From Erythrobacter ani (GTDB lineage Bacteria; Pseudomonadota; Alphaproteobacteria; Sphingomonadales; Sphingomonadaceae): DNA of 64,000 bases. Below are positions 25,900-32,671 of the stretch, in pieces; within the stretch, counting starts at the first letter, position 1, and each line of letters opens with the position of its first letter. The position numbers and the translations under genes were made by a program. The stretch covers positions 558,001-622,000 of the forward strand of contig NZ_JAGSPB010000002.1 in the NCBI RefSeq assembly GCF_019204025.1, in the 5' to 3' direction. Below the pieces are notes generated by a model that had not been told where the DNA came from, ran no database searches, and was given only the letters and a program-made list of their open reading frames with translations.

Positions 25900-26685
25900 A
25901 TGCATCAGCGTTTCTCCCTTCCGGGCCGCACCATGCAGAGTGCGATTGGCCTCCTGCTTGCCGGACTGATTGCGGGCGGATGGCTTGGCATCCATGCCTA
26001 TGGGATGTTCGTTTTCGAGCTGACTTGGGCGAACCTGCCATTCGCGCTCGTGCTTGCGCTGGTTCAGGTATGGCTGTCCGTCGGCGTCTTCATCGTCTGT
26101 CACGATGCCATGCATGGCAGCCTGGTGCCAAATCGGTCACGCGTGAATGCAGTGATCGGGACCGTGTTACTGTTTCTTTATGCCGGTTTTGCATGGCGCA
26201 AGCTTCGCGATGCGCATTTCGCTCATCACCGGCTCGCCGGGAAGACCGGTGATCCGGACTTCGACGAGAATAATCCAACCAGCTTCCTTCGTTGGTACGG
26301 GACCTTCTTCAAGCGCTATTTCGGCTGGCAGTCGCTTGTCTTCGTGCACATGGTTGTCGGCATCTATTGGCTGGTGATCGGAATCCCGATGGTGCAGATC
26401 GTCTTGCTTTACGGGGCGCCAGCGCTGCTATCTTCTTTGCAATTGTTCTATTTCGGCACTTTTCGCCCGCATCGGCATACGCTTGAGCAGAATGATGGCG
26501 AATTCGCGGACAACCATAATACGCGCAGCGATGAATTCGGGACTGTGACCAGTCTCGCAACCTGCTTCCATTTCGGCTATCATCTCGAGCACCACCGGCG
26601 TCCGGACGTACCCTGGTGGGCGCTCCCGGGTGCTCGCCGCGCCGGTATTGGGCTCGAAAGGCCAAGAAAGGAGATCGCGGCGTGA
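25900..26685 (+). CDS. crtW: Beta-carotene 4-ketolase
   Basis: The 261-aa membrane di-iron oxygenase shows the CrtW histidine boxes: HDAMH (68-72), HFAHH (106-110) and a C-terminal HLEHH, plus GDPDFDENNP after the second box. It introduces 4-keto groups into beta-ionone rings (canthaxanthin, astaxanthin). The stop overlaps the GTG of crtZ, so both are made together. The combination predicts ketolated and hydroxylated carotenoids, typical of orange marine Erythrobacteraceae. The remaining crt genes are not in the window. Confidence 0.95.
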   Translation: MHQRFSLPGRTMQSAIGLLLAGLIAGGWLGIHAYGMFVFELTWANLPFALVLALVQVWLSVGVFIVCHDAMHGSLVPNRSRVNAVIGTVLLFLYAGFAWRKLRDAHFAHHRLAGKTGDPDFDENNPTSFLRWYGTFFKRYFGWQSLVFVHMVVGIYWLVIGIPMVQIVLLYGAPALLSSLQLFYFGTFRPHRHTLEQNDGEFADNHNTRSDEFGTVTSLATCFHFGYHLEHHRRPDVPWWALPGARRAGIGLERPRKEIAA

Positions 26686-27182
26686 GCTGGCTCGAAGCAA
26701 TTGCAGTGACGCTTGCCGCGCTCGCCGGTATGGAATTGTTCGCATGGTACGCGCACAAATATATCATGCATGGCTGGGGCTGGGGATGGCACCGCGACCA
26801 TCATGAGCCGCATGACAGCATGTTCGAGAAAAACGACCTTTTTGCGGTCGTATTCGGCACGATCAACGCCGCAATGTATGTCTTCGGGGCGCTGTACTGG
26901 GACGCGCTGTGGTGGGCCGCGCTCGGCGTCAATCTGTACGGCGTGATCTACGCGTTCATCCACGACGGATTGGTGCACCAGCGCTTTTTCCGCTGGGTTC
27001 CCAAACGAGGATACGCGAAGCGGCTGGTGCAGGCCCACAAGCTTCACCATGCAACGATCGGCAAAGAGGGCGGGGTTAGTTTCGGCTTCGTCATCGCCCG
27101 CGACCCGCAAAAGCTGAAGGCCGAGCTGCGCATGCAAAAAGAATTGGGTCAGGCCGTGGTTCGCGAAAGTGCGGGTGCCTGA
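26682..27182 (+). CDS. crtZ: Beta-carotene 3-hydroxylase
   Basis: The GTG start at 26682 overlaps the crtW stop and is preceded by AAAGGAGA; the protein is 166 aa. CrtZ histidine motifs are HKYIMH (25-30), HRDHHEPH (37-44), HDGLVHQRF and HKLHHAT. It hydroxylates the 3 and 3' positions of beta-ionone rings. A longer upstream frame overlapping crtW is open but has no ribosome site. With crtW it completes an astaxanthin-type module. Confidence 0.95.
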   Translation: MSWLEAIAVTLAALAGMELFAWYAHKYIMHGWGWGWHRDHHEPHDSMFEKNDLFAVVFGTINAAMYVFGALYWDALWWAALGVNLYGVIYAFIHDGLVHQRFFRWVPKRGYAKRLVQAHKLHHATIGKEGGVSFGFVIARDPQKLKAELRMQKELGQAVVRESAGA

Positions 27183-27185
27183 CGC

Positions 27186-27533
27186 CTATTCGTTTCTGGT
27201 AGCGATCCAGCCCCCTGCGACGACCAGGATGGTGAGCGAAATCCAGACGTAAGGCTCGCCCAGAGTGAGCCACGTGAAAATCGCACCTACACTCATTGCA
27301 CCGATTGCTGCGAGCTTCGCCGGGCGCCTGATTGCCCTCCGTTCCCGCCAGTCGCGCAGTTGCGGTCCCCATGTGGGATGCTCGATGATCCGTCTCTCCC
27401 ATTCTGGGTTGCTGCGAGCGAAGCAGAAAACTGCAACGAGGAGAAAGGGGACTGTCGGCATGATCGGCAGCACAGCGCCGATCGCGGCCAGGCCCAGTGC
27501 GATGATGCCACCTGCCAGATAGAGCAGCCGCAT
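27186..27533 (-). CDS. DUF454 (YbaN-like) inner-membrane protein
   Basis: At 115 aa it has two N-terminal hydrophobic segments, the family motif GAVLPIMPTVPFLLVA and CFARSNPEWERRIIEHPTWG, then two more helices. E. coli YbaN is the reference; no biochemical function is known to me. It converges with crtZ with three bases between stops. It follows sufE on the same strand after a 12-base gap. Confidence 0.9.
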   Translation of the reverse strand: MRLLYLAGGIIALGLAAIGAVLPIMPTVPFLLVAVFCFARSNPEWERRIIEHPTWGPQLRDWRERRAIRRPAKLAAIGAMSVGAIFTWLTLGEPYVWISLTILVVAGGWIATRNE

Positions 27534-27545
27534 CCTCTTTACCCT

Positions 27546-27953
27546 TCAGGCCGCAGCCAGCCGGGCCGCGTGTTCCTTCACGAGGGCAATCATGTTCGGG
27601 ACGCCCTGCGTGCGGTTCGACGATAACTGGTTCTTCAAATCGAACGGCTCCAGCGCGCCGGTCACATCCATGCGGGCTACTTCGCCGGCGGACTTGTCCT
27701 GAACTGCTGCGATGACCAACGCGACGATACCTTTGGTGATGGCGGCGTTGCTGTCTGCGAGGAAGTGCAGCTTATCGGTTTGTTCGGTCGGATACACCCA
27801 GACGGCTGCGGAGCATCCGCGCACGAGGGTCGCATCGGTTTTCAGCGCTTCCGGCATATCTTCAAGCTCGCGCCCAAGCTCGATCAACAAGCGATAACGC
27901 TCATCACCTTCAAGGAATTCGTACTCTTCGAGAATGTCCGGCAAGGTCCGCAT
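27546..27953 (-). CDS. sufE: SufE-family sulphur acceptor protein
   Basis: The 135-aa protein has the SufE core with active-site Cys47 in VRGCSAAVW. The later NRTQGVPNMIALVK region also fits the family. SufE takes persulphide sulphur from the SufS desulphurase for iron-sulphur cluster assembly. The suf operon is not in this window, so the gene is stand-alone, probably co-transcribed with DUF454. A CsdE-type role is an alternative. Confidence 0.93.
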   Translation of the reverse strand: MRTLPDILEEYEFLEGDERYRLLIELGRELEDMPEALKTDATLVRGCSAAVWVYPTEQTDKLHFLADSNAAITKGIVALVIAAVQDKSAGEVARMDVTGALEPFDLKNQLSSNRTQGVPNMIALVKEHAARLAAA

Positions 27954-28008
27954 GGGCGCTATTTAGGAGCGCAAGCCCTTAAGTCCAACGGATATGACGC
28001 GTTGTTCG

Positions 28009-28266
28009 TTAAAGCTCCACACCGCTTGCGATCGCTTCGAGCTTCTTGATGCGCTCCTTTAGGTCGGCCATCTCTATCCGCGCTGCGCCGACCCCTGCGC
28101 CTCCCTCGATCTCGGATGTGTCGATGGTGCCGTGGGAACGACTTGGCCGCTCAAGCTCTTCGCGCTTGAATTCAAGCCAACCCTGCCATGCCCTGAGCAG
28201 GGCGAAAGCAACTACGCTGATGCCAACAAGACAGGTGGCTGCGATCACGAAAATCGGGTCCATCAT
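28009..28266 (-). CDS. PspB-like small membrane protein, copy 5
   Basis: This 85-aa protein is the last gene of the Psp operon. It has one N-terminal membrane helix (about residues 5-25), a basic linker, and a short C-terminal coiled coil, LKERIKKLEAIASG, which is a shortened form of the motif found in its upstream neighbours. It overlaps the preceding gene by four bases (ATGA). It probably arose by duplication of a PspB-type ancestor and lost the end of the motif. Function is unknown beyond presumed membrane-stress sensing. Confidence 0.8.
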   Translation of the reverse strand: MMDPIFVIAATCLVGISVVAFALLRAWQGWLEFKREELERPSRSHGTIDTSEIEGGAGVGAARIEMADLKERIKKLEAIASGVEL

Positions 28267-28604
28267 TCGCTCAAGTCCTCCGTCGTCTTCGAGGAACGCC
28301 GCGCAATATCTCCGCGCAGGCTTTCAATCTCACGGGCGATCCGCTGCGCCTTGCGCGCTTCGGAACTGTTTTCATCGGTCGCAATCCGCTCAAGCACTTG
28401 AACGCGCTCACGCAGTTCTGCGAGCTCAGCCGCATCGATCTCGTCCGGGGTCCGGGACGCAGCTTTTTCGTCAACGCGGTCCGATGGGGCGCCATCGAAG
28501 CGGCTCATCATCTGCCGGTTCTCCCGACGGAGCCGGTTGCTCCGACCGCGCTCGTAAATCCAAAGCACGACAAACACGATCAAGGCGATGGTGAGCCAAT
28601 TCAT
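28263..28604 (-). CDS. PspB-like small membrane protein, copy 4
   Basis: The protein is 113 aa. A membrane helix (about 4-18) is followed by an Arg-rich cluster (RGRSNRLRREN), a variable acidic spacer, and a coiled coil with the shared signature RVQVLERIATDEN, then EIESLRGDI. It overlaps both neighbours by four bases. Compared with the other copies it has a short insertion between the signature and the E-I-E-x-L-R end motif. Confidence 0.82.
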   Translation of the reverse strand: MNWLTIALIVFVVLWIYERGRSNRLRRENRQMMSRFDGAPSDRVDEKAASRTPDEIDAAELAELRERVQVLERIATDENSSEARKAQRIAREIESLRGDIARRSSKTTEDLSE

Positions 28605-28909
28605 TGCTGGCTGGTCTCCAGTTTGCCAGGTTCGGCCGCTTGGACGCGCAGCATATCGATTTCGTCGGAAAGCATCTGTCCGCGATCGGTTGCGATCCGC
28701 TCCAGCACACGCAGCCGGTCTTCGATCATGTCGGTCCGGTCGGCGATTTCGCTGACTTTGGGGCTATCGGAGCGATCTGCGGCGCTCATTCCGGCCTGCG
28801 AGCGCTTGTAGTCCAGCACCTTGGACACGATCCCGTTGATGCTCGCGCCAATTATGAGGACCATGATGATGATACTCGAAAAAATGATGACCAGATCGCT
28901 GTCCATCAC
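28601..28909 (-). CDS. PspB-like small membrane protein, copy 3
   Basis: This gene encodes 102 aa with a strongly hydrophobic N-terminal helix (about 6-28). The cytoplasmic part ends in RLRVLERIATDRGQMLSDE followed by IDMLRV, close to copies 1 and 2. The coiled coil spans about residues 58-90. It overlaps its neighbours by four bases on each side. The shared motif, size and topology argue for paralogy within the operon. Confidence 0.83.
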   Translation of the reverse strand: MMDSDLVIIFSSIIIMVLIIGASINGIVSKVLDYKRSQAGMSAADRSDSPKVSEIADRTDMIEDRLRVLERIATDRGQMLSDEIDMLRVQAAEPGKLETSQQ

Positions 28910-29271
28910 GCGCTCCCTTGGTCGGCGCGATGCTCGAGCGAGCGTTCGCGCAGCTGTTCGATCTCATTGCCGAGTTGATAACCGCCGTCGGTCACGATCC
29001 GCTCGACATTGGCCATCCGGTCTTTGAGCGACGAGAGCTCTGCTCTCAGTTCAGCGTTTTCCTGCGTCAGCAGCGTAACGCGCTGCTTCGCTTCGTGATC
29101 GGATGCCGGTTTGAGAGCCTGGCCCCAGGTTCCCTCTAGCGGATAACCGTGCTTGATCCTGAGTCGGGTCGTGTGGATCCAGCCAGCGACGGAAGCTGCC
29201 CCGATGGCCAGTGCGCCCCCCACGATCCAAGGCAGATGCGGGGCAAGATTGGCGGCAACGTCGATACTCAT
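28906..29271 (-). CDS. PspB-like small membrane protein, copy 2
   Basis: The 121-aa protein has a short periplasmic N-terminus, one membrane helix (about 13-32) and a longer cytoplasmic spacer. The coiled coil starts near residue 65, includes NVERIVTDGGYQLGNE, and ends IEQLRERS. It is the longest of the five copies. The four-base overlaps (ATGA) on both sides suggest fixed translation ratios. Confidence 0.83.
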   Translation of the reverse strand: MSIDVAANLAPHLPWIVGGALAIGAASVAGWIHTTRLRIKHGYPLEGTWGQALKPASDHEAKQRVTLLTQENAELRAELSSLKDRMANVERIVTDGGYQLGNEIEQLRERSLEHRADQGSA

Positions 29272-29567
29272 GCTTTTTCCTTGTCGTTGAGGTTGAGCGG
29301 GATCCCGGCGTCACGGGATTCGACCTTCACGGTGTCACGCAGCGCTTCGATCTGGGTGGCGATGTCATAGCCGCGATCCGTCACGATGCGTTCGAGCACC
29401 TTCACTCGGTCCTCAAGCTCCTGGACCCGGCTGGCATATTGCGCTGCCTTCTCTCCCGTGGCTTCGGCTGTCGCAGCCAGCTTCTTTTCTTCAAGCTTGC
29501 CGCGCTGGACGAGCCAGATGATCCCCAGAACCATCGCAAAGGGCGCAAATCCCACCAACCATTCCAT
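29268..29567 (-). CDS. PspB-like small membrane protein, copy 1
   Basis: This 99-aa protein follows pspC after 31 bases. The N-terminal membrane helix is about residues 5-21. The coiled coil (about 45-85) contains RVKVLERIVTDRGYDIATQ and IEALRDTV, the clearest form of the repeat motif. PspB of the same operon has the related DTVERLVASDD at the same place, supporting common origin. It overlaps copy 2 by four bases. Confidence 0.84.
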   Translation of the reverse strand: MEWLVGFAPFAMVLGIIWLVQRGKLEEKKLAATAEATGEKAAQYASRVQELEDRVKVLERIVTDRGYDIATQIEALRDTVKVESRDAGIPLNLNDKEKA

Positions 29568-29598
29568 GACGTTTCGTCCTCCCTATGAACCAGAGCGC

Positions 29599-29973
29599 TT
29601 AGCGCAGGCGTTCGATCTCTGCCGTCAGCCGCGGATTGCTGCTGACATAGTGCGTTTCGACAGCGGCCAATCGGCGGTCGATATCCCGAAAATTGGCGCG
29701 GATTTCGCGGGCAGTGCGCGTCGGGCTTTGGCGGACGCGCTGCCAGTATTTTTGCTCACCCTCGTCACGATAAAGATGCGGGGGTTTCTTGTTCATCAGA
29801 ATACCCGCAGCAATGTAGGCGAGGATCGGCCATCCGAGTCCAATAGTGAGAGCCACAAGCCCAAGCCGTATCCACAGAGCATTGATCCCGGTATATTCTG
29901 AGATGCCTGCGCAGACGCCCATCAACTTGCCGTTCGACTTGTCGCGATAAATGGTGGTGCGGGGCGAATTCAT
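29599..29973 (-). CDS. pspC: Phage shock protein C
   Basis: The 124-aa protein has the PspC domain at its N-terminus: a basic start (YRDKSNGKLMGVCAGISEY) and a membrane helix about residues 33-60. The C-terminal half is a cytoplasmic coiled coil ending IERLR. PspC senses envelope stress with PspB and binds PspA. It overlaps pspB by four bases. The family core is intact. Confidence 0.95.
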   Translation of the reverse strand: MNSPRTTIYRDKSNGKLMGVCAGISEYTGINALWIRLGLVALTIGLGWPILAYIAAGILMNKKPPHLYRDEGEQKYWQRVRQSPTRTAREIRANFRDIDRRLAAVETHYVSSNPRLTAEIERLR

Positions 29974-30275
29974 ACCTTGGATCCTTTCTTTTCGGCGATG
30001 AGCTGTTCAAGCTCGCGGAGCTGTTGGTTGTCGGTCTCCTGGTCGGCCATCAGGCGCTTCACCGGGGAGAATGACGGGTCGTCCGAGGCCACGAGGCGTT
30101 CGACTGTGTCCATCCGTTCGTCGAGGCGCTTGGCGAGGTTGTAGAGTTCTTCCAGCAAGACTTCGTCGTCGCTGGTGATCGTCGCTGCGGTCTTCCACTT
30201 GGTCATGTAGTGCATGACCATCCAGGGAAGCGCGATCACGACCATGAAAATGAGAAGTACGACTTCGAATGGCAT
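29970..30275 (-). CDS. pspB: Phage shock protein B
   Basis: At 101 aa it is longer than E. coli PspB (about 74). It has the usual N-terminal membrane helix (about 4-24), a Lys-Trp-Lys boundary, and a leucine-zipper coiled coil with AKRLDERMDTVERL. The C-terminal ~35 residues extend the coil. It starts three bases after the pspA stop and overlaps pspC by four. It is the likely ancestor type of the five small downstream genes. Confidence 0.92.
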   Translation of the reverse strand: MPFEVVLLIFMVVIALPWMVMHYMTKWKTAATITSDDEVLLEELYNLAKRLDERMDTVERLVASDDPSFSPVKRLMADQETDNQQLRELEQLIAEKKGSKV

Positions 30276-30278
30276 GAT

Positions 30279-30965
30279 TTATTCCCCCTTCTCGGCGTGG
30301 TCCTTGCCCAACGCCTTTTTCATTTCTGCAAGTTCATCGTCGATCGCATCTGCGCCTTCCAGCGCGGCGATTTCATCCGAAAGTGAAGGCTGACCTTCCT
30401 CTGCGATCGAAAGCGCGTCCGCCCGTCCCTCGGCGTAATCGACACGGCGTTCGAGCTGGTCGAAACGCGAGAGCGCTTCGTCGGTGCGTTCCGTGCTCAT
30501 CAGAGTGCGCAGCTTGACGCGGTTCTCGGCGCTTTCAAGCCGCGCCGCGATGGCGGTCTGGCGACTACGCGCTTCGCGCAGGCGGTGCTGCAGCTTTTGA
30601 ATATCGTCTTCGTAAGCGCGCAATGCATCATCAAGAACAGCGATTTCGGCTTTAAGCTGGTCGGCCATGCTGACGGCCTTTTTCTTTTCAACCAAGGCAG
30701 CGCGGGCCAGGTCTTCGCGATCTTTCGACAGCGCGAGCTGGGCTTTTTCTCCCCAATCGGCCTGAAGCCGGTCAAGCTTCACGACATGGCGGTGCATTTC
30801 TTTCTGATCAGCAATCGTACGTGCCGCACTTGCCCGCACCTCGACCAGGGTTTCCTCCATTTCGAGGATAATCATCCGGATCATCTTCGACGGATCGTCC
30901 GCCTTGTCGAGCATGTCGTTGAAATTGGCCGCAACGATGTCGCGGGTGCGGCTGAAAATACCCAT
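30279..30965 (-). CDS. pspA: Phage shock protein A (PspA/IM30)
   Basis: From ATG 30965 (GGAG eight to ten bases upstream) the protein is 228 aa, the normal PspA length. It starts MGIFSRTRDIVAANFND with the amphipathic helix and is coiled coil to the end. PspA coats damaged membrane and, by family precedent, inhibits PspF. The frame is open upstream for 96 more codons, and a GTG at 31241 could start a version with a 92-residue disordered N-terminal extension. Without a good ribosome site there, the short form is preferred. Confidence 0.95.
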   Translation of the reverse strand: MGIFSRTRDIVAANFNDMLDKADDPSKMIRMIILEMEETLVEVRASAARTIADQKEMHRHVVKLDRLQADWGEKAQLALSKDREDLARAALVEKKKAVSMADQLKAEIAVLDDALRAYEDDIQKLQHRLREARSRQTAIAARLESAENRVKLRTLMSTERTDEALSRFDQLERRVDYAEGRADALSIAEEGQPSLSDEIAALEGADAIDDELAEMKKALGKDHAEKGE

Positions 30966-31249
30966 GAAGGCTACTCCATCTAGGAACGGGTTGGTGGCGC
31001 TCTGCTTCGAATCGGTGTCGCGCTTGCGCTCATGAGATTGCGTCGGGGTGGGGCTGCGACGCAAGGCCTCGATTTCGGCGTCAAGACGAGACAAATTGCC
31101 CTGGCGTTGAAGAGAGCCGGTGGAACGGGCCGAAGCGAGGCTGCTTTTTCGCGCGCTGGCAGAGCTGTCTGCGCGCGAAGCAGGCTTTGCGGGGGACTTT
31201 TCCCGCTCCGGCCCGAAGGCGTTGGTTTCGTTCTTGCTCACCCGAACTC

Positions 31250-31435
31250 TCAAGCGATCTCGACCAGCATGACCGTGGCGGCATGCGGGTGAGCAAACAT
31301 GTCGGTTTGCGCGCTGTTCGCGTCAAATTGCGAGGTGAATACGACCATGACGGTCATCGCTGCGATGCTTGCGATCGAAGCGTGACCAAGCTTGCTGGTC
31401 CAAAATCTCTTCGCAAAGAACATGTTCTTGTACAT
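31250..31435 (-). CDS. 61-aa membrane/exported protein at the head of the psp operon
   Basis: ATG 31435 has GGGAG nine bases upstream and lies about 57 bases after the predicted sigma-54 transcription start. The protein has a basic N-terminus (KNMFFAKRFWTSKLGH), a hydrophobic segment (about 20-35), then a polar C-terminus with FAHPHA. It could be a small membrane protein or a cleaved exported peptide. It is the first coding unit under psp control. No family is recognised. Its stop overlaps the possible upstream start of the extended pspA frame. Confidence 0.65.
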   Translation of the reverse strand: MYKNMFFAKRFWTSKLGHASIASIAAMTVMVVFTSQFDANSAQTDMFAHPHAATVMLVEIA

Positions 31436-31502
31436 CTGGCGATACTCCCGCTGCGGCGATTTTCGACCCTGTGCCGATTTCCGCCAATCTTGCCCAAGAT
31501 TA

Positions 31503-31519
31503 AGCAAGCGGTGTGCCAA
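31503..31519 (-). promoter_or_regulatory. Sigma-54 promoter of the psp operon
   Basis: On the minus strand the sequence reads TTGGCAC, five bases (ACCGC), TTGCT. The invariant GG (31517-31516) and GC (31505-31504) are exactly ten bases apart, as required for RpoN promoters. Start of transcription is expected near 31492. An inverted repeat GAAAT-N5-ATTTC (31526-31540) lies upstream and could be part of the PspF enhancer region. Confidence 0.88.
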
Positions 31520-31618
31520 ACTGCAGAAATCCCGAATTTCCAACGATATTTTCACTGTGAGCTAAGATCTTGATGGTACCTATTGCCAAACATTGGGAAA
31601 TCTCACTATAGATTGGTT

Positions 31619-32671
31619 ATGGAGCGGGATAATCAGTTCATTGGACAGTCTGGTGCCTTCCTCGATGCAGTGGAGCGTGCGTCGCGCGCTGCACCGATGA
31701 GCCGCCCTGTCCTCGTCATCGGCGAGCGCGGGACCGGGAAAGAGCTCATCGCCGAACGCCTGCATCGCCTATCCACCCGGTGGGATGAGCCGCTCGTCAC
31801 GATGAACTGTGCGGCTCTTCCCGAAACCTTGATAGAGGCCGAATTGTTCGGCCACGAAGCCGGCGCTTTCACTGGTGCTACCAAAGCCAGAGCGGGAAGG
31901 TTCGAAGAAGCCGACAGAGGCACTTTATTTCTCGATGAACTGGGCACTCTGTCGATGGGCGCGCAAGAACGTTTGCTGAGAGCCGTGGAGTATGGCGAGA
32001 TCACCCGCATCGGTGCGTCGAGGCCGATCCGGGTCGATGTGCGGATTGTGGCCGCCACGAATGACGACCTGCCCGCTTTGGCGGAAAGCGGCGAGTTTCG
32101 TGCCGACCTGCTTGATCGGCTCAGCTTCGAGGTGATTACGCTGCCCCCCCTGAGGGTGCGGGATGGGGATGTCGGAGTGCTGGCCGAATATTTCGCAAGG
32201 CGGATGGCGGCCGAACTCGATTGGCATTCCTGGCCCGGGTTTGCGCCGCATGTCATGACCAGCCTCGAAGAATATGCCTGGCCCGGCAATGTGCGCGAAT
32301 TGCGCAATGTTGTGGAGCGTGCGGTTTATCGTTGGGACGATCCGGAAAGTCCGATCGCGCATATGCAATTCGATCCGTTCGAAAGCCCTTGGAAACCGAA
32401 GGCTCCTCCTCATCGGTCGAGCGCCGCAGCAGCCCTGCCAGCTGGCGGAGTAGCCCAGTCGCAGGCGTCAGCCCACTCCGCCGCCGACACCTTCGACCAA
32501 ATCGACGATTTGCGCGCCGCCGTCGATGAGCATGAGCGGACGATTGTCGAGCATGCACTCGGCAAGCATCGCTGGAATCAGCGCCAGACAGCGAAGGCTC
32601 TGGGACTGAGCTACGACCAGCTTCGACACGCGATCAAGAAGCACGGATTGATGGAGGAAGGCGAAAGCTAG
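31619..32671 (+). CDS. pspF: PspF, sigma-54-dependent activator of the psp operon
   Basis: From ATG 31619 the protein is 350 aa. It has no receiver domain and begins directly with the AAA+ module: Walker A GERGTGKE (35-42), the sigma-54 contact loop GAFTGA (82-87) and Walker B LFLDELG. The C-terminus is a Fis-type helix-turn-helix with RQTAKALGLSYDQLRHAI. It diverges from the psp operon, whose promoter is of the sigma-54 type. A TTG 12 codons upstream is an alternative start. PspA is expected to hold it inactive until membrane stress. Confidence 0.95.
   Translation: MERDNQFIGQSGAFLDAVERASRAAPMSRPVLVIGERGTGKELIAERLHRLSTRWDEPLVTMNCAALPETLIEAELFGHEAGAFTGATKARAGRFEEADRGTLFLDELGTLSMGAQERLLRAVEYGEITRIGASRPIRVDVRIVAATNDDLPALAESGEFRADLLDRLSFEVITLPPLRVRDGDVGVLAEYFARRMAAELDWHSWPGFAPHVMTSLEEYAWPGNVRELRNVVERAVYRWDDPESPIAHMQFDPFESPWKPKAPPHRSSAAAALPAGGVAQSQASAHSAADTFDQIDDLRAAVDEHERTIVEHALGKHRWNQRQTAKALGLSYDQLRHAIKKHGLMEEGES

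Follow-up and report, generated by a model that had tools for sequence, protein, structure and literature searches.

The phage-shock-protein (Psp) system is a model for the way in which bacteria sense and mend damage to the inner membrane, and how PspB and PspC signal to PspA is still debated. Here, we describe the psp locus in a stretch of 64,000 nucleotides from Erythrobacter ani (contig NZ_JAGSPB010000002.1, positions 558,001 to 622,000; hereafter the window), in which pspA, pspB and pspC are followed by an array of five small genes (open reading frames ORF1 to ORF5; Table 1). The predicted products are membrane proteins, and four of them end in a common tail related, by profile comparison, to the C-terminal tail of PspC.

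The psp locus and its array of small membrane proteins

Judged from sequence alone, the layout is that of a psp regulon, with gene spacings between -4 and +31 bases (ORF1 starts 31 bases downstream of pspC), a sigma54 site upstream and pspF adjoining, and it supports membership of the five ORFs in the psp operon; a scan of positions 27100-31700 gave no promoter- or terminator-like match on the minus strand. An earlier note on this DNA had described five genes in a series of four-base overlaps. All its coordinates were confirmed, and the array genes do overlap by four bases, save ORF2 and ORF3, which overlap by one base if ORF3 starts at its ATG and by four if it starts at the alternative GTG.

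ORF1 to ORF5 share the architecture of PspB, a single N-terminal helix (predicted with low confidence in ORF2) followed by a predicted cytoplasmic coiled coil, and the hydrophobicity and charge pattern of approximately 297 array members from 61 loci bears out the note's description of them, with one hydrophobic helix near the N terminus of each member. In most classes of array protein (see below) a net-positive stretch lies behind the helix, so that by the positive-inside rule the tails would be cytoplasmic in vivo. ORF1 to ORF4 have a common tail of ~35 residues, (L/V)ERI(V/A)TD...(E/Q)IxxLR, with the consensus (E)DRvxVLERIVTDxGYxLxxEIexLR. The central motif reads LERIVTD in ORF1, VERIVTD in ORF2 and LERIATD in ORF3 and ORF4; the note's signature was thus found in all four, and the EIxxLR end that it had assigned to them occurs in ORF2 to ORF4, ORF1 ending in QIEALR. 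One R and the E do not vary between the classes, and R, I, T, D, I, L and R hardly do. As the note had also stated, ORF5 keeps only a shortened motif, the first half of the tail with the end LKERIKKLEAIASGVEL, and PspB of the window carries VERLVASDD.

Table 1. Features of the psp locus, in positions of the window
Feature	Position	Strand	Basis or remark
pspF, divergent sigma54 activator	31583..32671	+	TIGR02974 487 bits, cut-off 443.6
sigma54 (-24/-12) promoter TGGCACACCGCTTGC, form TGGCAC-N5-TTGC	31504..31518	-	read from sequence; upstream of pspA
small conserved membrane protein, 61 amino acids (aa), between promoter and pspA	31250..31435	-	E 1e-22 to 0.007 in ~40 relatives
pspA (ATG 30965)	30279..30965	-	TIGR02977 277.5 bits, cut-off 243
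pspB	29970..30275	-	TIGR02976 88.1 bits, cut-off 51.7
pspC	29599..29973	-	TIGR02978 119.7 bits, cut-off 104
array ORF1 (class B), 99 aa, transmembrane helix and tail LEDRVKVLERIVTDRGYDIATQIEALRD	29268..29567	-	ORF call, orthologue class, profile comparison
array ORF2 (class D), 121 aa, transmembrane helix, HGYPLEGTWGQ segment and PspC-like tail	28906..29271	-	ORF call, hhalign
array ORF3 (class E), 101 aa; alternative GTG start 28909	28601..28906	-	PF06667 E 0.0017, below cut-off
array ORF4 (class A), 113 aa	28263..28604	-	ORF call, class; class-A-like proteins exist beyond Sphingomonadaceae
array ORF5 (class C), 85 aa, shortened tail ARIEMADLKERIKKLEAIASGVEL, separate class	28009..28266	-	one clade 100/100 in tree

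The nearest named relatives are Erythrobacter, the closest match to ORF2 coming from E. rubeus (93% identity). In most loci of the window's clade the sigma54 element has the same relative place, and in loci of a Sphingomonas-like clade the search pattern used went unmatched. Loss of pspF or rpoN was rejected as the cause, and because both genes are present in 35 of the 35 genomes tested, the promoter in that clade probably differs from the pattern; pspF itself gave a match over cut-off in every Sphingomonadaceae genome searched.

Upstream of pspA, the 61-aa gene has the consensus MYNRxFFxSKLGQAAIASIAAM...E(I/L)A. It resembles in position ZMO1062 ('pspD') of Zymomonas, an extra small protein of the psp operon that is induced with the psp genes (PMC8645129); the accounts of Zymomonas considered here name pspABC and ZMO1062 only. 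Such accessory genes are like the array in being extra small proteins of the operon, but ZMO1062, placed between pspF and pspA by its locus number, would not be an array member. The pspA frame itself stays open for ~95 codons upstream of its ATG (30966-31253, minus strand), as do long upstream frames in many relatives; since the pspA matches begin at MGIFSRTRD, this extension is probably driven by a high content of G and C. Two CrtW/CrtZ-like genes (carotenoid ketolase and hydroxylase, judged by eye) lie at 25900-27182 on the plus strand, convergent to the end of the psp/sufE cluster.

Relationship of the array tail to PspC and PspB

Array proteins fall into six orthologue classes, A to F, by reciprocal best hits. 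Profile-profile comparisons on deep sets were repeated with reversed and with heptad-preserving shuffled profiles as controls. In them classes A, B, D, E and F match one another at expectation (E) values of 1e-12 to 1e-23, whereas reversed profiles give 4e-4 to 0.5. By these comparisons ORF1 to ORF4 are homologous to one another beyond coiled-coil chance, and the kinship of ORF5 with them is weaker; chance similarity of coiled coils was rejected for ORF1 to ORF4 by both kinds of control, and for ORF5 only in part. The note had staked its proposal on the five proteins being homologous to one another or to PspB, which thus holds well for four of them and less well for the fifth. A search of the whole genome with the tail profile returned exactly four places, those of ORF1 to ORF4, at E <= 2e-13 (next place E 0.04), and found no array copies elsewhere in the genome.

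Against the PspB models ORF1 to ORF4 score 14-19 bits, below the cut-offs of 25.6 (PF06667) and 51.7 (TIGR02976), and ORF5 has no match to either; the PspC domain (PF04024) has no match in ORF1 to ORF5, and the weak Pfam matches of the individual ORFs include other coiled-coil families. ORF1 to ORF3 also match the C-terminal part of the PspC model TIGR02978, ORF2 best (residues 77-121, E 0.004). With deeper profiles, classes A, B, D, E and F match PspC tails (59 Sphingomonadaceae sequences in the final comparison) at E 1e-4 to 3e-9 and PspB at 1e-3 to 1e-6. The scores against the two are 19-44, compared with a mean of 9-12 and a maximum of 20 for heptad-preserving shuffles, and the weakest PspB scores barely exceed the best shuffle. 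Each of these classes matches at least one PspC set at E <= 9e-7 in an alignment that reaches the tail end, whereas the PspB alignment mostly ends after the first helix. For the ORF2 class, hhalign gives E 6e-8 over PspC residues 89-124, to the last residue, and the class D alignment is gapless (PspC REIRANFRDIDRRLAAVETHYVSSNPRLTAEIERLR, ORF2 AELRAELSSLKDRMANVERIVTDGGYQLGNEIEQLR). On this evidence the C-terminal tail of PspC (residues 89-124) is a homologue of the array tail, and the shared tail matches this cytoplasmic part of PspC no less well than it matches PspB, which corrects the note's 'PspB-like'; that ORF1 to ORF4 are related to PspB is supported.

The link to PspB is nevertheless real despite the scores below cut-off: class B of the genus-mate G012 matches TIGR02976 at E 2.4e-7, and a solitary gammaproteobacterial relative has matches both to full-length PspB (E 2e-10) and to the PspC tail (E 3e-6), which links the two. 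Class B provides the best-conserved link, ORF1 itself matching full-length PspB (TIGR02976) at E 0.0016. The array proteins and PspB (PF06667/TIGR02976) are alike in their one N-terminal helix and coiled coil, in their operon and in a weak collinear similarity, but the (E)RILDxExPxWR tail of PspB and the HYxTxWK stretch behind its helix are absent from the consensus of classes A to F, and the array tail goes on with a PspC-type GYxLxxEIxxLR helix. The PspC tail (TIGR02978 residues 77-121), RRLAxVEsxYVSSNPRLtAEIERLR, aligns over its whole length with DRLANVERIVTDsGYhLxxEIexLR of the array, which has no PspC domain in front and a single, different membrane helix in its place. PspB-like architecture with a PspC-type tail seems a fair description. 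In the alphaproteobacterium G420 (locus L094), two adjacent array-like genes have similar helices and different tails, one PspC-type (IERYVTSPEFGLNRQFRDLER) and one PspB-type (LERILDAEAPGWRSR), and the tail thus behaves as an exchangeable module.

The array is under purifying selection, with dN/dS (the ratio of nonsynonymous to synonymous substitution rates) at 0.24-0.45 for the six classes, values that are rough as dS is high. Paralogues of one genome are 49% identical in their tails (31% when shuffled) and 28% identical in their membrane regions (27% when shuffled). Orthologues within classes A, B, D and E share 32-42% of residues in the membrane region and 59-72% in the tail, as compared with 63% and 65% in PspB; in class F the N-terminal region is kept like the tail (0.61 against 0.56). 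The conserved function thus resides in the tail, since within most classes the membrane helix diverges faster (identity 0.32-0.42 against 0.59-0.87 for the tail). At locus L136 (4367-4897), two adjacent class-B-like genes have near-identical tails and very different membrane helices, and look as though a duplicated gene had exchanged its anchor.

Distribution and age of the array

PspA is present in 235 of the 248 genomes of the order Sphingomonadales, and the psp loci read comprise 61 from ~40 genera of Sphingomonadaceae, 20 from divergent genera, and locus L126. The array occurs in psp loci throughout the Sphingomonadaceae: among the loci listed, every one has at least one member (range 1-8, mode 5), nearly always beside pspF. 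At least 379 relatives of ORF2 occur in contigs of GTDB. The order of the classes is conserved: loci of the Erythrobacter-like clade read B-F-D-E-A-C and those of the Sphingomonas-like clade F-D-B-A-C. The set of classes differs between close relatives. A tree of 130 members needs seven class changes (minimum 6, shuffled mean 84), its deep forks being weak. By orthologue classes and tree, the array classes are older than the radiation of the Sphingomonadaceae, and recent tandem duplication in this strain is rejected. The note's repeated duplication is thus ancient, and ORF5 forms a separate class.

In the other families of the order (20 loci), plain pspABC prevails apart from a few exceptions: a class-A-like extra gene in three genomes of one family, a PspB-type copy in another, and occasional additional PspC-domain genes. 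In one other family of the order, loci L082, L084 and L090 continue after pspABC with a further short PspC-domain gene and one class-A-like gene, a layout that is possibly a forerunner of the array. The wider class contributed 17 loci, among which L094 alone goes beyond plain pspABC. Among 285 other Alphaproteobacteria the array profile matches in one genome, away from its psp operon, and across the phylum 27 of 379 genomes from outside the family have one or two matches, which, where read in context, do not adjoin psp genes. Taken together, these searches describe the array as a Sphingomonadaceae-level expansion, nearly absent from other Alphaproteobacteria, of a module that is found more widely but sparsely.

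Solitary or paired genes with a helix and an LERIVTD tail lie far from psp in other classes, probably Gammaproteobacteria (L108-L118, L127), and in Alphaproteobacteria (L119-L124). They match the array profile at E 1e-7 to 1e-14, with the same helix and tail, but occur in one or two copies per genome with no psp genes adjoining; no curated family covers those tested. At L125 (3776-4165), a DUF6487-like (zinc-ribbon-type) N terminus, lacking an obvious membrane helix, precedes the same C-terminal module.

ORF5 and its class C have a distribution of their own. In five Sphingomonadaceae genomes (G175, G137, G167, G155 and G095) class C is apparently missing from the array at the pspF locus. At least these five members of the family have a three-gene locus, pspA2-pspC2-class C, devoid of pspB and pspF (L129, L144-L147). 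Because class C there follows a second pspA-pspC pair, the ORF5 class is linked to PspA-PspC in its own right, and it is likely to be a dedicated partner of that pair. In a further variant, G053 (L126, 2796-4397), PspC is without its C-terminal tail and the locus without pspB, but two array proteins are encoded behind pspC; its pspF lies on another contig (L148).

According to the note, known Psp systems have one PspB. This is contradicted by Ravi et al. 2024 (PMC11237479), who record PspB duplicates within psp operons (for example AOL22920.1), PspC fused to a divergent C-terminal PspB and PspB-like sequence at the end of PspC. In the main text as far as available, the duplicates take up one sentence, with no copy numbers, classes, tail motif, distribution or mechanism. 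A literature search found no published description of the array in sphingomonads, and in one annotated public record the genes between pspC and sufE are each a 'hypothetical protein'. PspB duplicates in operons are thus known, and what appears new, set beside the available parts of that work, is the sphingomonad array with its classes, PspC-type tail and distribution.

Possible roles of the array in the Psp response

In enterobacteria the PspC tail is a switch, which in the on state takes PspA from PspF and recruits it to the membrane. Binding of PspA by the PspC tail in the on state has been described (PMC5596341). Mutations in the PspC zipper abolish PspA binding in E. coli, where PspB associates with itself and with PspC (PMC3068692). 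The array may provide additional copies of this tail: each protein would use its one helix to tether a cytoplasmic PspC-type tail to the inner membrane, would hetero-oligomerise with PspB and PspC via the coiled coil, and would bind or compete for PspA and so tune its recruitment. Because the array is encoded in the psp operon itself and would be made with it, PspA would find many more docking sites at the membrane, and more kinds of them, once the response is on. We infer such binding to PspA, PspB or PspC and an effect on signalling, and tentatively favour, at somewhat less than an even chance, a model in which extra membrane-anchored tails bind PspA and/or the PspB and PspC tails and tune PspA recruitment.

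Several points weigh against this docking model. Retention in the array tails of the face of PspC that binds PspA is putative, and docking and the sign of its effect are proposed from homology, linkage, charge topology and selection. Coiled-coil repeats inflate similarity scores, for which heptad-shuffled controls are an imperfect remedy. ORF5 matches PspC or PspB at E 2.6e-4 at best, has no match to the Sphingomonadaceae's own PspC and misses the second half of the tail. The module also occurs alone, far from psp, in Gammaproteobacteria, and so need not act solely with PspA. AlphaFold monomer models are of low confidence and show helices only (predicted local distance difference test 66-72, predicted template modelling score ~0.3), and a sequence search gave no solved structures of PspB or PspC.

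An alternative that we consider unlikely is a multi-sensor array, in which each distinct helix detects its own membrane state or partner and reports via the common tail. Paralogue membrane regions are indeed no more alike than shuffled ones (0.28 and 0.27) while tails are (0.49 and 0.31), the classes have stayed distinct for as long as the Sphingomonadaceae have existed, and in class F the N-terminal region is no less conserved than the tail. A specific sensing surface would, however, predict something other than the helix observed, which in classes A, B, D and E evolves fast even between orthologues (0.32-0.42 against 0.59-0.72 for the tail, and 0.63 for the PspB helix), and no one sensor can be essential where the class set varies between close relatives. 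The tails might instead act as decoys or a brake, binding the PspB and PspC tails or PspA and preventing capture of PspA, and thereby set a threshold or provide negative feedback. Encoding within the induced operon would suit this improbable role, as would contacts between the PspB and PspC tails that, going by the title of a 2016 study by Flores-Kim and Darwin, reportedly silence the Yersinia response; up to eight copies in distinct conserved classes would exceed what a brake needs.

A structural role with little part in signalling, as a scaffold for PspA assemblies or membrane domains in repair, seems rather improbable. It would account for the solitary relatives away from psp genes, and PspB and PspC of Yersinia are also membrane-protecting effectors (PMC5596341), but every array examined lies in a psp locus, nearly always next to pspF; sequence alone cannot separate this role from the docking model. 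That the ORFs are unrelated coiled-coil membrane proteins, alike by composition and heptad repeat, is highly improbable. The weak, mixed Pfam matches and the near-background comparison of ORF5 with PspB and Sphingomonadaceae PspC would fit such a reading, which for ORF1 to ORF4 the profiles already contradict, through inter-class matches of 1e-12 to 1e-23 with flat reversed controls, scores above the heptad-shuffled controls, and invariant or near-invariant R, E, R, I, T, D, I, L and R at fixed places across the classes.

A bolder form of the docking model, which we hold to be doubtful, would have the Psp system of Sphingomonadaceae consist not of one PspB/PspC switch but of a set of distinct membrane-anchored PspC-type tails that grade PspA recruitment in varying combinations, with the ORF5 class as a hitherto unrecognised third partner of PspA-PspC able to run a separate locus free of PspF. 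The natural deletions, splits and swaps among these loci (one to eight copies, the tail-less PspC, the pspA-pspC-ORF5 locus) are natural experiments on the function of the tail, and, with the genes annotated as hypothetical proteins in the public record read, existing transcriptomes can be re-read for them. For as long as the family has existed, the output tail of the Psp switch seems to have been multiplied in it, pointing to an expanded docking step within an otherwise familiar stress response.

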